Below are positions 31,886 through 36,831 of a DNA stretch of 56,636 nucleotides, in pieces (position 1 is the stretch's first letter; each line of letters begins with the position of its first letter). The notes beneath the pieces are model-generated. The model was not told the origin of the DNA. It saw nothing but the letters and a program-made list of their open reading frames with translations, and did not search any database. Position numbers and translations under genes: made by a program. Origin of the DNA: an uncultured Saprospiraceae bacterium (lineage in GTDB: Bacteria > Bacteroidota > Bacteroidia > Chitinophagales > Saprospiraceae); assembly GCA_905480605.1 (NCBI GenBank), contig CAJQRD010000047.1, positions 1 to 56,636 of the forward strand, read 5' to 3'.

Positions 31886-34800
31886 ATGACAGGTAGAATA
31901 TTTCTTTGTTATTTATTATTTCTGATAAGTGCGATACCCCTCGTTTCGCAAAAAGAATATTTACTGCAAGCCAATCAGGCATATGAGACAGGTCAATACC
32001 AAAAAGCGATTCGTCTTTACACACAATACAACAAGATAAATCGCGACAGTGAAGCATTGGGGAAAAGAGGCATTGCCTATTTCAATTATAATCTTGTAGA
32101 CAAGGCCGTTGAGGACTTTACAGCAGCCAAAAAATTAGGCAACAATGACCCTGTTTTATATCTTAAGATGGGCCAGAGCAAACAGTTCTTAAGATTGTTT
32201 GATGAAGCATCTTTCTTCTACCAAAAATACCTTGAGCTGGCAGACAAAAATGGCCCCTATCGAAAATTGGCCGAATTGGAAATTAAAAACTGCGTATTCA
32301 GTGCTCTGGAAACTTTTGAAACAGCTGGAACTTTGATCCAAAGTTTTGGAGATGATGTCAACAGTCGATATGATGAAGTTTATCCTATTCAAAGTCCTAA
32401 GTTTGGTAATGTTTTTTACTTTTCTTCCAATAGGAACAAATCCAATTTTGATATCTTTTCATACACATTAAGTGAAGACGGATTGTGGTCAAAAAACGAT
32501 ATGACAGAAAAACCATTTAACAATGGATATCACAATGTGGCCTTGGATGTTGATGCTGCCACTATAAATGCCCTATTGTATTCAGAAGTCAGCATGAGTG
32601 AGGAGACAATACAATTTGCAAGTTTTGATCTAAGTGGTCAAGATATTGTAGTCAAATTGCCTAAAGATATTTTTGAAGGTGCAAAAGACATCAGCATAGT
32701 CAACCATAACATGGTTGTATTTTCTTCTAAAAAACTACGTGGATTTGGTGGGTATGATATATTTACTGTTAGTTATAAAGATGGCTCATGGTCAACACCG
32801 CTAAACTTAGGTGGTGCGATTAATTCCCCATTTGATGAAATCTGCCCATTCTATTCAAACAATTTAAACCACTTTTATTTCTCATCGAATCGACCTTACT
32901 GTTTTGGAGGATACGATATATATTATTGTGATATCGCAAATGAAAAATTTCCCGTGAACATGGGCTATGGAATCAATAGTCATGGTGATGAATTGCATTT
33001 CAATATTGATGATGCTGGTCATATGGCCACTTTCAGTTCAAACAGAAAAACGGGTTTAGGTGGCTATGATTTGTACTTTGCATACTTGCAAGACATCAAA
33101 AACATGGGTGTCAGGGATTCATTAGTTTTTGAATATTTAATCAATCCAGACGAAGAATTTGTGCAGGTAAAAAACAGAGATAATTTGGTGTCTCTTGAAT
33201 CAAATAACGGTAAACTTAACAGTGCAAAAGAATCAAAATCCATAGAAATATCAAATAAGATTGAAGCAATTAAAGAAAGACCTAGTGACGAAAACGTAGA
33301 AGACAATCCTGCTTCAAGCGTCGTAGCCCAAGTAGAAAAAATCTCTACCGTTCTGGATTCAGAAAAAAAAGAAACTGGTGATGATAATGTCAGTATTAAG
33401 AAAGAAAACACAACGGTCAATACAATTGAAGGAATAAACAACAACCAACCAAAATCTGATGTTGACAATAGTTTAAATAAAGGAGATGAAACTATTGCAA
33501 ACTCTAAAACCCAAGACTCGAAAGTTCATATACAAAAGGAGATAAAGAATAGTACTGGTTCAGAAATAGAAAATAAAAAAACATCAAAAGATCTAGTAGG
33601 CACATCAAAAGAAAGAGCCGCAGAAATAGTTGAAGCAAAGAAAAACAATATTGCATCTGAAATTACAACAACCCAGCCTACGGAAATAAAACCTATTGAC
33701 TCCGCAGTTTTAGATAAAGAAATTATTATTGAGGACAAAGCCCCTAAGGTTACCTCAGCACTCGAAAAAAAAGAGACAGAAATAAATAATCCAGCAAGTT
33801 CAACGATAATTGGACCTATGGAAAAAAGAGATCCAGCAAATATTGTTATTGAAAATTCAACATCAACAGACAAGAACAGCCTTCCATCAATAGATTCTTC
33901 CACTGTCACAACGGTAATTGAAAAAGAAAAACCTTCTGATGAAAATAACAACGAGGCAAAGTCAAAACCAACAAATGACAGTAGTGACCCTCCAGCATCC
34001 TCTAAGGATGTTGTAAAAAGTAGTGATATAAACTATACGGACAAAGAGCTTACACCAATTGACGCAGGGACTAAAGAAATAAAAGGCACAGAAGTAAAGA
34101 CTGAAGAACGCCCAAAAAGAATCGAAACAAAACCTGAAAATTTAAAAGAACACAAAACTGAGACTCTTGCTAACCACAGAGACTTTAAAAAAATAGAAAA
34201 GCCTTGGACGACTTTCGTCCTGCCTCAAACTTTATACTATCGCGATAGACAGGATTTAACCAGAGGAGAAAATATGGTTAAATTAAATCAATTGGTTGTT
34301 AGTGAATTTGAAACGAGCACCACTTTTGTCTTACTTGCACATACTGACGATACAGAATTGGGCCTTCCTGAGTATGTCCAATACAACACCTTCAAACGTG
34401 CTTTAAAAGTTGCTGAATATCTAAATGAAAGCGGTATTGAAAAAAATAGAATTAGAATTGAAAGTTTAGCAAACAATTACCCTTTAATAAAAAGTGATAT
34501 TGCTGGTGAGAAGATCAATTCCCTTTATGCTCATAATAAAAGAGTTGACATCTTAATCTACGATAAAGATCAAATCAAAGAAGATAATGTTATTGAAGAC
34601 GGATCTATTCCTGATTATGCCTTTGATCGTCGCTATGAATTGTTTAGAAGTATTAGAGAGGGCACTTACTATTCAATAGAAGTTGCTTCATCAGAGCGTA
34701 TTTTTAAAAATGCTATTTTACGTTTGTACAACGACATCTATATCAGGCGAGATGACATGGATGGTCAGAATAAATATTACATTGGTATTTATACTAAGAA

Positions 34801-34897
34801 AGAGGATGCTTACAAGCTTAAGGATCAACTGCTAGAAACATCTTCGCCTTATGCTAAGGTTGTTCGGTTTGTTAATGGGAAGGTTGATAATAAATGA
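31886..34897 (+). CDS. Large TPR-PD40-OmpA envelope protein with SPOR-like tail
   Basis: This 1003-residue exported protein has a signal peptide (residues 1-22), TPR-like helices (about 25-130: AYETGQYQKAIRLYTQYNKI) and PD40/WD40-like propeller blades (about 150-405: VVFSSKKLRGFGGYDIFTVS, FYFSSNRPYCFGGYDIYYC). About 330 residues of Glu/Lys/Ser/Thr-rich low complexity follow. An OmpA-like peptidoglycan-binding domain (about 781-892: FVLLAHTDDTELGLPEYVQY) and a C-terminal SPOR-like segment (about 915-1003) complete it. TPR-PD40-OmpA recalls the T9SS anchor protein PorE, but the carboxypeptidase-regulatory domain of PorE is not seen. It starts 19 bp after the E2 gene. Confidence 0.8.
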   Translation: MTGRIFLCYLLFLISAIPLVSQKEYLLQANQAYETGQYQKAIRLYTQYNKINRDSEALGKRGIAYFNYNLVDKAVEDFTAAKKLGNNDPVLYLKMGQSKQFLRLFDEASFFYQKYLELADKNGPYRKLAELEIKNCVFSALETFETAGTLIQSFGDDVNSRYDEVYPIQSPKFGNVFYFSSNRNKSNFDIFSYTLSEDGLWSKNDMTEKPFNNGYHNVALDVDAATINALLYSEVSMSEETIQFASFDLSGQDIVVKLPKDIFEGAKDISIVNHNMVVFSSKKLRGFGGYDIFTVSYKDGSWSTPLNLGGAINSPFDEICPFYSNNLNHFYFSSNRPYCFGGYDIYYCDIANEKFPVNMGYGINSHGDELHFNIDDAGHMATFSSNRKTGLGGYDLYFAYLQDIKNMGVRDSLVFEYLINPDEEFVQVKNRDNLVSLESNNGKLNSAKESKSIEISNKIEAIKERPSDENVEDNPASSVVAQVEKISTVLDSEKKETGDDNVSIKKENTTVNTIEGINNNQPKSDVDNSLNKGDETIANSKTQDSKVHIQKEIKNSTGSEIENKKTSKDLVGTSKERAAEIVEAKKNNIASEITTTQPTEIKPIDSAVLDKEIIIEDKAPKVTSALEKKETEINNPASSTIIGPMEKRDPANIVIENSTSTDKNSLPSIDSSTVTTVIEKEKPSDENNNEAKSKPTNDSSDPPASSKDVVKSSDINYTDKELTPIDAGTKEIKGTEVKTEERPKRIETKPENLKEHKTETLANHRDFKKIEKPWTTFVLPQTLYYRDRQDLTRGENMVKLNQLVVSEFETSTTFVLLAHTDDTELGLPEYVQYNTFKRALKVAEYLNESGIEKNRIRIESLANNYPLIKSDIAGEKINSLYAHNKRVDILIYDKDQIKEDNVIEDGSIPDYAFDRRYELFRSIREGTYYSIEVASSERIFKNAILRLYNDIYIRRDDMDGQNKYYIGIYTKKEDAYKLKDQLLETSSPYAKVVRFVNGKVDNK

Positions 34898-34925
34898 TTT
34901 TCTGCCTTAACTACATAAAAATTTT

Positions 34926-35158
34926 CTACCTATACTTTGTCTTTGCAGGACCGTATGTTTTCGAATTAAATTTAATATCCCGATACGGATAAAATAGATA
35001 TAGATTATAAACAGCTCTACACCTTGATATCCCGTTAGGGATATAATTTGGGTAGAAATAATGAATACCCCTACACCCGTATCATCGGTACGAAATATTT
35101 ATTGGCTATTTTTATATGTCGTACCTACGGCACGAGGTGTTGATTAATGATTTGTTTT
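34926..35158. repeat. REP-like composite repeat, tandem unit 1
   Basis: This 233-bp unit contains in order a degenerate TGTCCT/AGGACA hairpin (near 34939), TATCCCGATACGGATA (34976-34991), a perfect ATATCCCGTTAGGGATAT hairpin (35027-35044), CCGTATCATCGGTACGA (35077-35093) and TCGTACCTACGGCACGA (35119-35135). The perfect hairpin is flanked by CTACACC and GGGTAG outer arms. The unit is about 95% identical to the next by hand count (roughly 11 differences). Confidence 0.85.
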
Positions 35159-35390
35159 CTGCCTATATTTTGTCCTTAAAGGATTGTATGTTTTCGAATT
35201 AAATTTAATATCCCGATACGGATAAAACAGATATAGATTATAAACAGCTCTACACCTTGATATCCCGTTAGGGATATAATTTGGGTAGAATAATGAATAT
35301 CCCTACACCCGTATCATCGGTACGAAATATTTATTGGCTATTTTTATATGTCGCACCTACGGCACGAGGTGTTGATTAATGATTTGTTTT
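35159..35390. repeat. REP-like composite repeat, tandem unit 2
   Basis: This 232-bp direct repeat of the preceding unit has the same five hairpins: near 35171-35185, then at 35209-35224, 35260-35277, 35309-35325 and 35351-35367. The last one carries a T-to-C change that breaks a pair (TCGCACC instead of TCGTACC). Confidence 0.85.
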
Positions 35391-35555
35391 CTACCTATAT
35401 TTTGTCCTTAAATGATCGTATGTTTTCGAATTAAATTTAATATCCCTATACGGATAAAATAGATATAGATTATAAACAGCTCTACACCTTGATATCCCGT
35501 TAGGGATATAATATGGATAGAAATAATCCCGTGCCAGCGGTACGGAATCTAATTA
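35391..35555. repeat. REP-like composite repeat, tandem unit 3 (truncated at the transposase gene)
   Basis: It matches units 1 and 2 through the ATATCCCGTTAGGGATAT hairpin (35492-35509), then diverges and ends with CCGTGCCAGCGGTACGG (35529-35545). The last bases include the stop codon of the minus-strand transposase. The 3' part of the unit (TCGTACC hairpin) resumes only on the far side of that gene. Confidence 0.8.
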
Positions 35556-36014
35556 TTCAATAGATTTAAAAATATATCGATCATCAAAATCAATTTTAAA
35601 AGCTTCTAAATATTCTGTATATTCTTGAATAAATGTTTTCTTTTTATGATGCTCTTTTTGGTTTTGAATATATCTTATCACATTAGGAACTTGTGATTTT
35701 CCATAAGAAAAAGCACCGTATCCTGCTTGCCATGAAAATTTCTGTTTTAAAAAACCACTTTCATTAATCCATTTGGAAGAATCCCCTTTTATTATTTTTA
35801 ATAACTCGGAAATGGATTGTGTTGGGCGCATTCCAAAAAACACATGGATGTGGTCAGCCATCCCATTAATTTGCAATAGTTTGTGATCATGGTTTTGAAT
35901 AATTCCAGTTATGTATTTATACAATTCATTTTCCCATTTTTTATCAATTAATGATTTTCGGTTTTGTACAGCAAAAACTGCTTGGATATGAATTTGCGTA
36001 TAGGTGTTTGCCAT
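35553..36014 (-). CDS. IS200-like Y1/HUH transposase (RAYT-type)
   Basis: This 153-residue single-strand transposase domain has the HUH pair H55 and H57 (MADHIHVFFGM) and a candidate nucleophile Y115 in NVIRYIQNQKEHH. WQAGYGAFSYGKSQVP (95-110) is a further family landmark. The protein is full length with no disruption. Members of this superfamily nick and join single-stranded DNA at hairpins. Those beside clusters of short palindromes (REP-associated tyrosine transposases) are thought to spread REPs rather than themselves. No TnpB gene is adjacent. It lies inside a large array of palindromes and antisense to the genes on both sides. Confidence 0.92.
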   Translation of the reverse strand: MANTYTQIHIQAVFAVQNRKSLIDKKWENELYKYITGIIQNHDHKLLQINGMADHIHVFFGMRPTQSISELLKIIKGDSSKWINESGFLKQKFSWQAGYGAFSYGKSQVPNVIRYIQNQKEHHKKKTFIQEYTEYLEAFKIDFDDRYIFKSIE

Positions 36015-36033
36015 TGTTGCTTATTTTTATATG

Positions 36034-36691
36034 TCGTACCTACGGTACGAAGTGTTGTTTAATGTTTTGTTGTTTACCCATTTTTTCTCCTTACAGGACA
36101 TTCTATATTTGTATAATGACTTTAGTTTCCCATTAGGAATATAGTATGAATTGCACCGGCGCCATAGGTTCGGAATATTTATTGGCTTTTATAATATATC
36201 GTACCTACGGCACGAGGTGATCATATAATTATTTCTTTTTTCCTATATTTTGTCCTTACAGGACAGGTTATATTCGAATTACTTTAATCATTAAGGAAAA
36301 TACATGGTCAGATTTTTGAATATTTCTACACATTCCTACCCCGTTAGGGATAAAATATAAATAGAAAAAAGAATTTCTAAACCTTAGTATCCTGCTAGAG
36401 ACAAAATATCGGTAGAAGAAAAAAAATGAATCGTATCCGTGCCAGCGGTACGAAAGGTTTCTTAGCTATTATTATATATCGTACCTACGGCACGAAGTGT
36501 TCATTAATTATTCGTTATTTACCCATATTCTGTCCTTACAGGACCTTTTTTTTCGAATTAAATTTAACCGTTAGGGATAAAACATAGGTAGAATCAAGAA
36601 TTTCTACACCTTAGTATCCCGTTAGGGATAAAATATGAGTAGAATACCCATAAATGAATCGCATCCGTGCTATCGGTACGGAATCTAATTA
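36034..36691. repeat. REP-like palindrome array right of the transposase
   Basis: It is made of three more diverged blocks, each opening with a TCGTACC-TAC-GGYACGA hairpin (36034-36050 perfect, 36199-36215, 36479-36495). A TCCT-TAC-AGGA hairpin follows in each (36087-36100, 36251-36265 perfect, 36531-36545). CCCGTTAGGG-type hairpins follow at 36337-36352 and 36615-36630, with degenerate ones at 36127-36140, about 36388 and 36568. Each block closes with CCGTGCC-type hairpins (36157-36173 degenerate, 36437-36453, 36665-36681). The order is the same as in the tandem units to the left. The final 17 bp repeat the sequence at the transposase 3' end. Confidence 0.82.
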
Positions 36692-36792
36692 ATACATGCA
36701 TTCGTTTTTTGTTTTGCCATTGCAAATTTTAATCAATCAAACATAATACACTATTAAGAATCTTTAATCGAAACATTAAAACCCCTCTATAA

Positions 36793-36823
36793 TTGTAACA
36801 TTGTTCTAAAGACCTTACTTTTG
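36793..36823 (+). promoter_or_regulatory. Promoter of mtaB
   Basis: TTG at 36793-36795 is followed after 20 nt by TACTTTTG at 36816-36823, an exact Bacteroidota -7 box. The ATG is only 8 bp beyond the box, so the transcript would be leaderless or nearly so. Confidence 0.65.
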
Positions 36824-36831
36824 CGCCCAAT

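Follow-up and report, generated by a model that had tools for sequence, protein, structure and literature searches.

Paired two-hairpin modules surround an IS200-like subclass 1.2 type transposase gene in a Bacteroidota repeat array

The window analyzed here is a 56.6-kb stretch of DNA, contig 47 of a 4.5-Mb source genome assembled in 125 contigs. Between about 34890 and 36700 it holds a repeat array, which surrounds an intact gene for a HUH/Y1 protein of 153 aa. This gene, tnpA (35553–36014, minus strand), encodes the motifs DHIH, WQ and YIQNQKEHH, and from these its product is assigned to the IS200-like subclass 1.2 type of Y1 HUH transposases. No other Y1 gene was detected in the source genome at E ≤ 1e-8. 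To the left of tnpA, Tandem Repeats Finder reports a 232-bp tandem repeat at 34922–35527 (score 1107, 2.6 copies, 94% matches). No Rfam family exceeded its gathering score in 34800–36830, the best being a chance-level match to Acido-Lenti-1 (17.4 bits against 37).

Five palindromes recurring around the gene had been named in the initial annotation: TCGTACC-TAC-GGCACGA, TGTCCT-TAC-AGGACA, TATCC-CGATAC-GGATA, ATATCCC-GTTA-GGGATAT and CCGTGCC-AGC-GGTACGG. When the 56.6-kb window was searched on either strand with up to three mismatches, all five were found, at 5, 5, 8, 7 and 3 sites, and every site falls inside 34890–36700; families 3 and 4 match partly at common sites. Dinucleotide-shuffled windows (n = 5) gave 0–1 sites for four of the palindromes and 0–4 for TGTCCTTACAGGACA, and the array is beyond chance by far. 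The division into five separate families was not upheld. The first and last palindromes are a single inner-hairpin type in opposite orientations, the second and fourth are the outer-hairpin type in opposite orientations, and TATCC-CGATAC-GGATA lies within three mismatches of the outer type, so that the five reduce mainly to two hairpins, each in both orientations. The accompanying idea of a composite multi-hairpin unit agrees with what we found, several hairpins standing in a fixed order. An additional outer-like hairpin was also seen in the spacer between array units, at 34976–34991, 35209–35224 and 35441–35456.

The layout was characterized in the flanks of the best 80 of 551 confirmed named homologues. 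Each module begins with an outer hairpin C (GTCCC-loop-GGGAC type); a spacer of about 9 nt separates it from GGTAG, and another of about 30 nt leads to an inner hairpin D (GTGCC-loop-GGTAC type). On the gene strand, the upstream order in most of the 80 homologues is C near -83, GGTAG about 9 nt later, D near -31 and the start codon; after the stop codon, most have an inner hairpin near +13, CTACC near +52 and an outer hairpin near +66, the downstream half being the mirror image of the upstream half. The initial annotation had pointed out, in the outer arms of one palindrome family, a GTAG similar to that of REP bases: a GGTAG-type motif is present, but its position is about 9 nt to the 3' side of the outer hairpin and not at the hairpin foot. 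Under a rule that fixes the distances between hairpin, [GA]GTA[AG] and hairpin, 44 of 81 loci had a module immediately upstream and 50 of 81 had one immediately downstream, with some contigs ending within the flanks and the window counted as a miss. A rule of this type gave 292 modules in the 80 loci against 31–41 in five shuffles. Within 500 bp of the gene these loci held 2.5 and 3.1 modules per kb, against 0.3–0.5 per kb at 500–1000 bp and 0.10–0.24 per kb beyond 1 kb. Counts of perfect-stem hairpins per locus were not informative. Two loci showed peculiarities of their own: the tnpA homologue of Marixanthomonas spongiae (L092) has an internal stop codon and adjoins tandem direct repeats of about 1 kb, and a close Bacteroidota-type tnpA with modules (L064) lies on a contig labelled as a Methylococcaceae MAG, which may reflect a binning error or transfer.

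Because the strict rule mostly missed the modules of the window (two were found), a covariance model, R1, was used in its place (77 positions, 46 sequences). Alignment A1 held 62 module sequences, 61 hand-picked from 94 primary modules and one from the window; alignment A2 kept 46 of the 62, and the 16 removed mostly had a 3-nt outer loop, with a few taken out for an unusual spacer or without a rule. The invariance of GGTA and the stem pairing in A1 and A2 are partly by construction. The stems had been selected as paired, and with this selection 96.7% of cells in the R1 alignment are paired and 51 cells changed on both sides, against 12.6 in shuffles and also above slid controls. In 41 of the 46 sequences, one position of inner hairpin D is occupied by a G-U type pair, so the two DNA strands of this hairpin differ. 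Every one of the 80 loci matches R1 at least once at E ≤ 0.05, 35 of them having supplied training sequences; at L071, among the matches listed, the sole match is about 2 kb from the gene.

With R1, the array resolves into modules standing as inverted pairs, one of which encloses tnpA. The tnpA-bearing element (35491–36102, minus strand) consists of a C-D module immediately upstream of the gene and in its orientation (36029–36102, minus; 38.8 bits), tnpA, and an inverted module immediately downstream (35491–35550, plus; 40.8 bits), and relatives share this layout. Left of it are two inverted pairs without tnpA, at 35259–35420 (35346–35420, minus, 40.3 bits; 35259–35330, plus, 46.1 bits) and 35026–35187 (35114–35187, minus, 47.0 bits; 35026–35098, plus, 49.1 bits), and the left end of the array is marked by a weak or partial module at 34892–34954 (minus; 17.4 bits, E 0.036). 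On the other side, a module in gene orientation at 36194–36267 (minus; 52.3 bits) is followed by a further pair without tnpA at 36335–36547 (36474–36547, minus, 51.6 bits; overlapping plus-strand matches at 36335–36409, 31.5 bits, and 36386–36458, 30.9 bits), and one or more inverted modules at 36564–36686 (plus; 46.5 bits for 36564–36636 and 48.1 bits for 36613–36686) form the right end. By eye, the inverted partner of 36194–36267, towards 36126, appears decayed. The inner hairpin core at 35120–35134 follows the pattern CGTRCCNNNGGYACG, and other exact copies of the pattern start at 35530, 36035, 36200, 36438 and 36480. The pair at 35259–35420 folds modestly better than shuffles (z -2.3).

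Across the source genome, R1 gave 12 sites at E ≤ 1, all within the array and without the weak left-end module, and the inner-hairpin pattern gave six sites, all in the array, against none for the backwards control pattern. Since both kinds of site occur only here, the array is one tnpA-bearing inverted pair among tnpA-less pairs and decayed pieces, and the whole cassette is not dispersed in the source genome beyond the window locus. Absence of the palindromes elsewhere in the genome had been named beforehand as an observation that would speak against the proposed amplification, and this is what the source genome gives. Cassette copies lacking a transposase, which the same annotation suggested looking for, do exist, here in the array and as dispersed copies in relatives (below).

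The transposase scored 102.3 bits against Pfam Y1_Tnp and passed NCBIfam transpos_IS200 (74.7 bits, cut-off 55), and it failed REP_Tyr_transpos, the REP-associated model (27.2 bits, cut-off 80), so its earlier description as RAYT-type was not confirmed and, by curated model, the protein is not a RAYT. Among PDB sequences, only two distinct ISHp608-type TnpA sequences were related at E ≤ 0.001 (E about 2.5e-4), and in the alignment DHIH and YIQNQ of the window protein pair with DHIH and YIENQ. An AlphaFold model built with 29 sequences (mean pLDDT 86.9) found the ISDra2 and IS608 transposases as best structural neighbours by E-value and superposed on the E. coli RAYT-REP structure 4er8 with 2.8 Å over 117 columns; E-values thus point to the IS200 structures and rmsd to the RAYT, and a monomer model cannot show inter-subunit helix exchange. 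Y115, Q119 and H123 are invariant in 29 aligned homologues, and Y...Q..HH is present in 28 of 29 relatives. According to the survey of Quentin et al. 2018 (PMC6006769), DHIH, WQ and YIQNQKEHH are marks of TnpA subclass 1.2, which is listed with 'no' for REPs, generally lacks the typical IS200 terminal structures and is set apart from IS200 for want of IS properties, and class 2 TnpA_REP (RAYT) is defined by a Y---NP motif. The window tnpA agrees with subclass 1.2 in DH[IV]H, WQ, Y---Q--HH, a length close to about 148 aa and low copy number; it departs from the published description, which has no REP or IS end structures, in that modules flank the gene.

Whether module number follows the gene had also been raised, and the answer is a partial one. 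Modules were found in 20 of 100 related genomes, the source genome included (R1, E ≤ 0.01, with strict filters that lose weak matches). Of the 31 genomes with a close tnpA, 14 carry modules, as do 6 of the 69 that lack one (Fisher p 6.6e-5, without correction for relatedness). The close-tnpA set was hand-transcribed and comprised near full-length genes of at least 41% identity, a 63-aa fragment of 57% identity in G074 being excluded. At loci outside the training set, R1 matches (E ≤ 0.1) were obtained for 10 of 29 loci with a close tnpA and for none of 15 other Y1 loci (p 0.009), 7 of these 15 also having Y...Q..HH. Under a looser rule, a module lay within 600 bp in 16 of 29 close loci against 4 of 15 control Y1 loci, and direct repeats flanked the gene in 18 of 29 close loci, 1 of 8 Y1 loci without HH and 5 of 7 divergent HH loci. 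Four genomes (G033, G063, G087 and G089; loci L144, L148, L137 and L142) have modules and no Y1 gene at E ≤ 1e-8, and these modules look as if orphaned after loss of tnpA. Thirteen genomes of the same genus gave no R1 match, including two with a tnpA of 53–55% identity. At one same-genus locus (L015 in G005, tnpA 55% identical), the layout by eye is kept and the hairpins are wholly different (GCCACAGCGTGGC, GCTCCAGAGGAGC), which suggests that the hairpins drift along with the transposase. From the 80 named loci, 38 were taken and 37 genomes searched, that of L059 being left out; all 37 carry modules, 2 to 87 each and only 2 in four of them, in a set chosen for the homologue and with many members that had supplied training sequences.

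Dispersed copies were clearest in two relatives, Aquiflexum sp. TKW24L with 46 matches and Cognataquiflexum rubidum with 27, spread across contigs and many of them as inverted pairs. Nine full copies, seven of them distinct, were parsed by pattern and measure 145–146 bp from outer hairpin to outer hairpin. The outer hairpin GTCCCTTTAGGGAC is found in 20 of 27 parsed modules in Aquiflexum (14 stretches) and 6 of 8 in Cognataquiflexum (5 stretches), and the inner hairpin GTGCCTTTAGGTAC in 19 of 27 and 6 of 8 in the same stretches. Both also occur at the local tnpA of the two genera, where the commonest outer hairpin at the Aquiflexum tnpA is, by rule, GTCCCTATAGGGAC; the match is not exclusive, as the shared hairpins, GTGCCTTTAGGTAC among them, are found at the tnpA of other genera too. 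One dispersed stretch of 148 nt folds as a single long hairpin (z -7.7). No 5-bp direct duplication at a common offset stood out in the seven copies (best 19 of 35 over 169 offset pairs), which fits the expectation for Y1 chemistry; L233 and L244 look orthologous, so the seven perhaps represent six insertions. The compared copies of the two genera also have no separate terminal repeats of the DDE type. Tandem growth is seen as well: in Aquiflexum sp. TKW24L (L063 / L243) a unit of tnpA plus modules stands in near-identical triplication with a 916-bp period. In another relative (G037, 43 matches), the dispersed hairpins are near but not identical to those at its tnpA.

Some copy sites are, by inspection, common to Aquiflexum and Cognataquiflexum. 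At two Aquiflexum sites the element is absent in Cognataquiflexum, but the right flank, the intergenic DNA or the spacing is not conserved, so neither gives a clean empty site. Nor was one obtained for the window: ten same-genus genomes have the mtaB neighbour with no tnpA in the flank examined, which is short in some, and the left neighbour of the window is not syntenic in them, being elsewhere or not found.

The core has also traveled by another route. Genomes G036 and G130, with 39 and 87 matches, have dispersed copies with the same paired-hairpin core, and in these (L159–L178, L249–L255) the inverted pair lies inside terminal repeats of about 30 bp, ATGCGAATTAGGGG. From 26 loci, 11 elements were parsed, and their 5-bp target duplications agree at 48 of 55 positions, a value reached by 0 of 10,000 shuffles; one of the 11 is probably spurious, and the ten credible copies measure 185–218 bp. 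These terminal repeats and duplications, together with dispersed hairpins unlike those of the local tnpA, show that the core was carried by a DDE-type element in G036 and G130, so other spreading routes exist. Movement was recent, as three G036 copies located on separate contigs share about 99% identity over 213 bp.

These observations bear on several explanations. An ordinary IS200/IS605 insertion sequence with subterminal hairpins, its tnpA-less copies being plain deletion derivatives (PATE-like) and its two-hairpin end nothing special, would agree with transpos_IS200 as the closest curated model and with IS608 and ISDra2 as best structural neighbours. However, IS608-type ends have one hairpin each, in the same orientation, and here each flank has two hairpins and GGTAG in a mirror arrangement. 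The tnpA gene is single copy in the source genome, and the 2018 survey separates subclass 1.2 from IS200 (PMC6006769). We regard this explanation as unlikely. Somewhat more doubtful is a domesticated tnpA in a locus where slippage or unequal crossing over alone enlarges the hairpin repeats, which act as cis regulators or terminators of the gene. The strictly local array of the source genome, the tandem 232-bp and 916-bp units, and the four of 37 homologue genomes with only two module matches would all suit it, whereas the unlinked dispersed 145-bp copies in two relatives, with hairpins also present at their tnpA, argue against it.

The G036 and G130 elements are the best case for a third account, in which the modules spread mainly by other transposases as DDE-type MITEs and tnpA is a passenger or late recruit. 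The Aquiflexum and Cognataquiflexum copies compared are without such ends and duplications, and in the 80 loci the modules are concentrated near tnpA; we hold this account to be improbable. Most improbable by far is a classical RAYT/REP system, as first proposed for the locus. Its REPIN-like inverted hairpin pairs, its GTAG and the superposition on 4er8 recall such systems, but REP_Tyr_transpos scores far under its cut-off, the GTAG stands away from the 5' foot of the hairpins, and the tyrosine motif is Y---Q--HH rather than the Y---NP given in PMC6006769. RAYT/REP membership has thus already failed on the defining features tested, namely curated model, motif and GTAG position.

Given a conserved anatomy, hairpin-matched dispersal in two relatives and local tandem growth, we lean towards reading the locus as part of a small single-strand transposon family, in which REPIN-like non-autonomous elements would be moved by a subclass 1.2 TnpA. 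The steps below are drawn from the anatomy and from known Y1 chemistry, in part as given in PMC6006769. The autonomous copy would be the C-D module, the subclass 1.2 tnpA and the inverted D'-C' module, set amid tandemly amplified tnpA-less inverted pairs. TnpA would bind the hairpins in single-stranded form, probably on the template of the lagging strand, cut with its tyrosine and rejoin. Outer hairpin C with its GTAG may be the cleavage region, and the strand-asymmetric inner hairpin D, with a conserved G-T wobble on one strand and an A-C mismatch on the other, may give polarity. The entire inverted pair would then be moved or copied by TnpA, in cis and in trans, and the number of tandem copies could rise or fall through slippage or unequal exchange involving direct repeats.

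A wider reading is offered more tentatively: subclass 1.2 TnpA may form a third Y1-transposase/palindrome system across Bacteroidota, beside IS200/IS605 and RAYT/REPIN. Its unit would be an inverted pair of two-hairpin modules with internal GTAG, acting in trans, with hairpins that drift with the transposase, and it would make both dispersed copies and local tandem arrays. The one classification that our searches found (PMC6006769) enters this subclass as free of associated palindromes, yet such palindromes are present, and their mirror layout of two hairpins is both conserved and unusual. Our full-text search of open-licence PMC papers recognized none describing palindromes with subclass 1.2, and judged from those papers they appear undescribed. 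The modules offer a likely TnpA substrate, and cultured hosts, among them Aquiflexum and Algoriphagus, would allow the function of TnpA to be tested. The system may be an independent case of IS transposases turning into REPIN-like systems, and the same layout around relatives across the phylum points to a family of miniature mobile elements that has received little notice.

Compared with known systems, the locus resembles IS200/IS605 elements (IS608, ISDra2) in transposase family, by curated model and fold, and it differs from them and their PATE derivatives in its mirror-image two-hairpin ends, single-copy gene and tandem arrays; hairpins are present, with no guide or cleavage tetranucleotides of the IS200/IS605 kind assignable from sequence. 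Like DDE-type MITEs, the units are short inverted-repeat elements, and in G036 and G130 the modules sit inside one, whereas Aquiflexum-type copies are without target duplications or separate terminal repeats. The likeness to subclass 1.2 in PMC6006769 covers the length of about 150 aa, DHIH, WQ, YIxNQxxHH, the low copy number and the occurrence in Bacteroidota; the difference is that the survey enters 'no' for REP, and here and in relatives conserved two-hairpin modules flank the gene. Inverted pairs that can fold into one long hairpin and are dispersed between genes, as in REPINs, are found among the Aquiflexum copies and not in the source genome. With the REPIN/RAYT systems of PMC3116915 and PMC3733652, the locus shares a single transposase gene, non-autonomous copies, a GTAG tag and an inverted palindromic pair that as a single strand can fold into a long hairpin. 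Unlike them, it has a transposase of another class, each of its halves contains two hairpins, and its copy number is low to moderate; its GGTAG stands between the two hairpins, about 9 nt to the 3' side of C and about 30 nt to the 5' side of D, where REPINs have GTAG/GTGG at the 5' foot of the hairpin.
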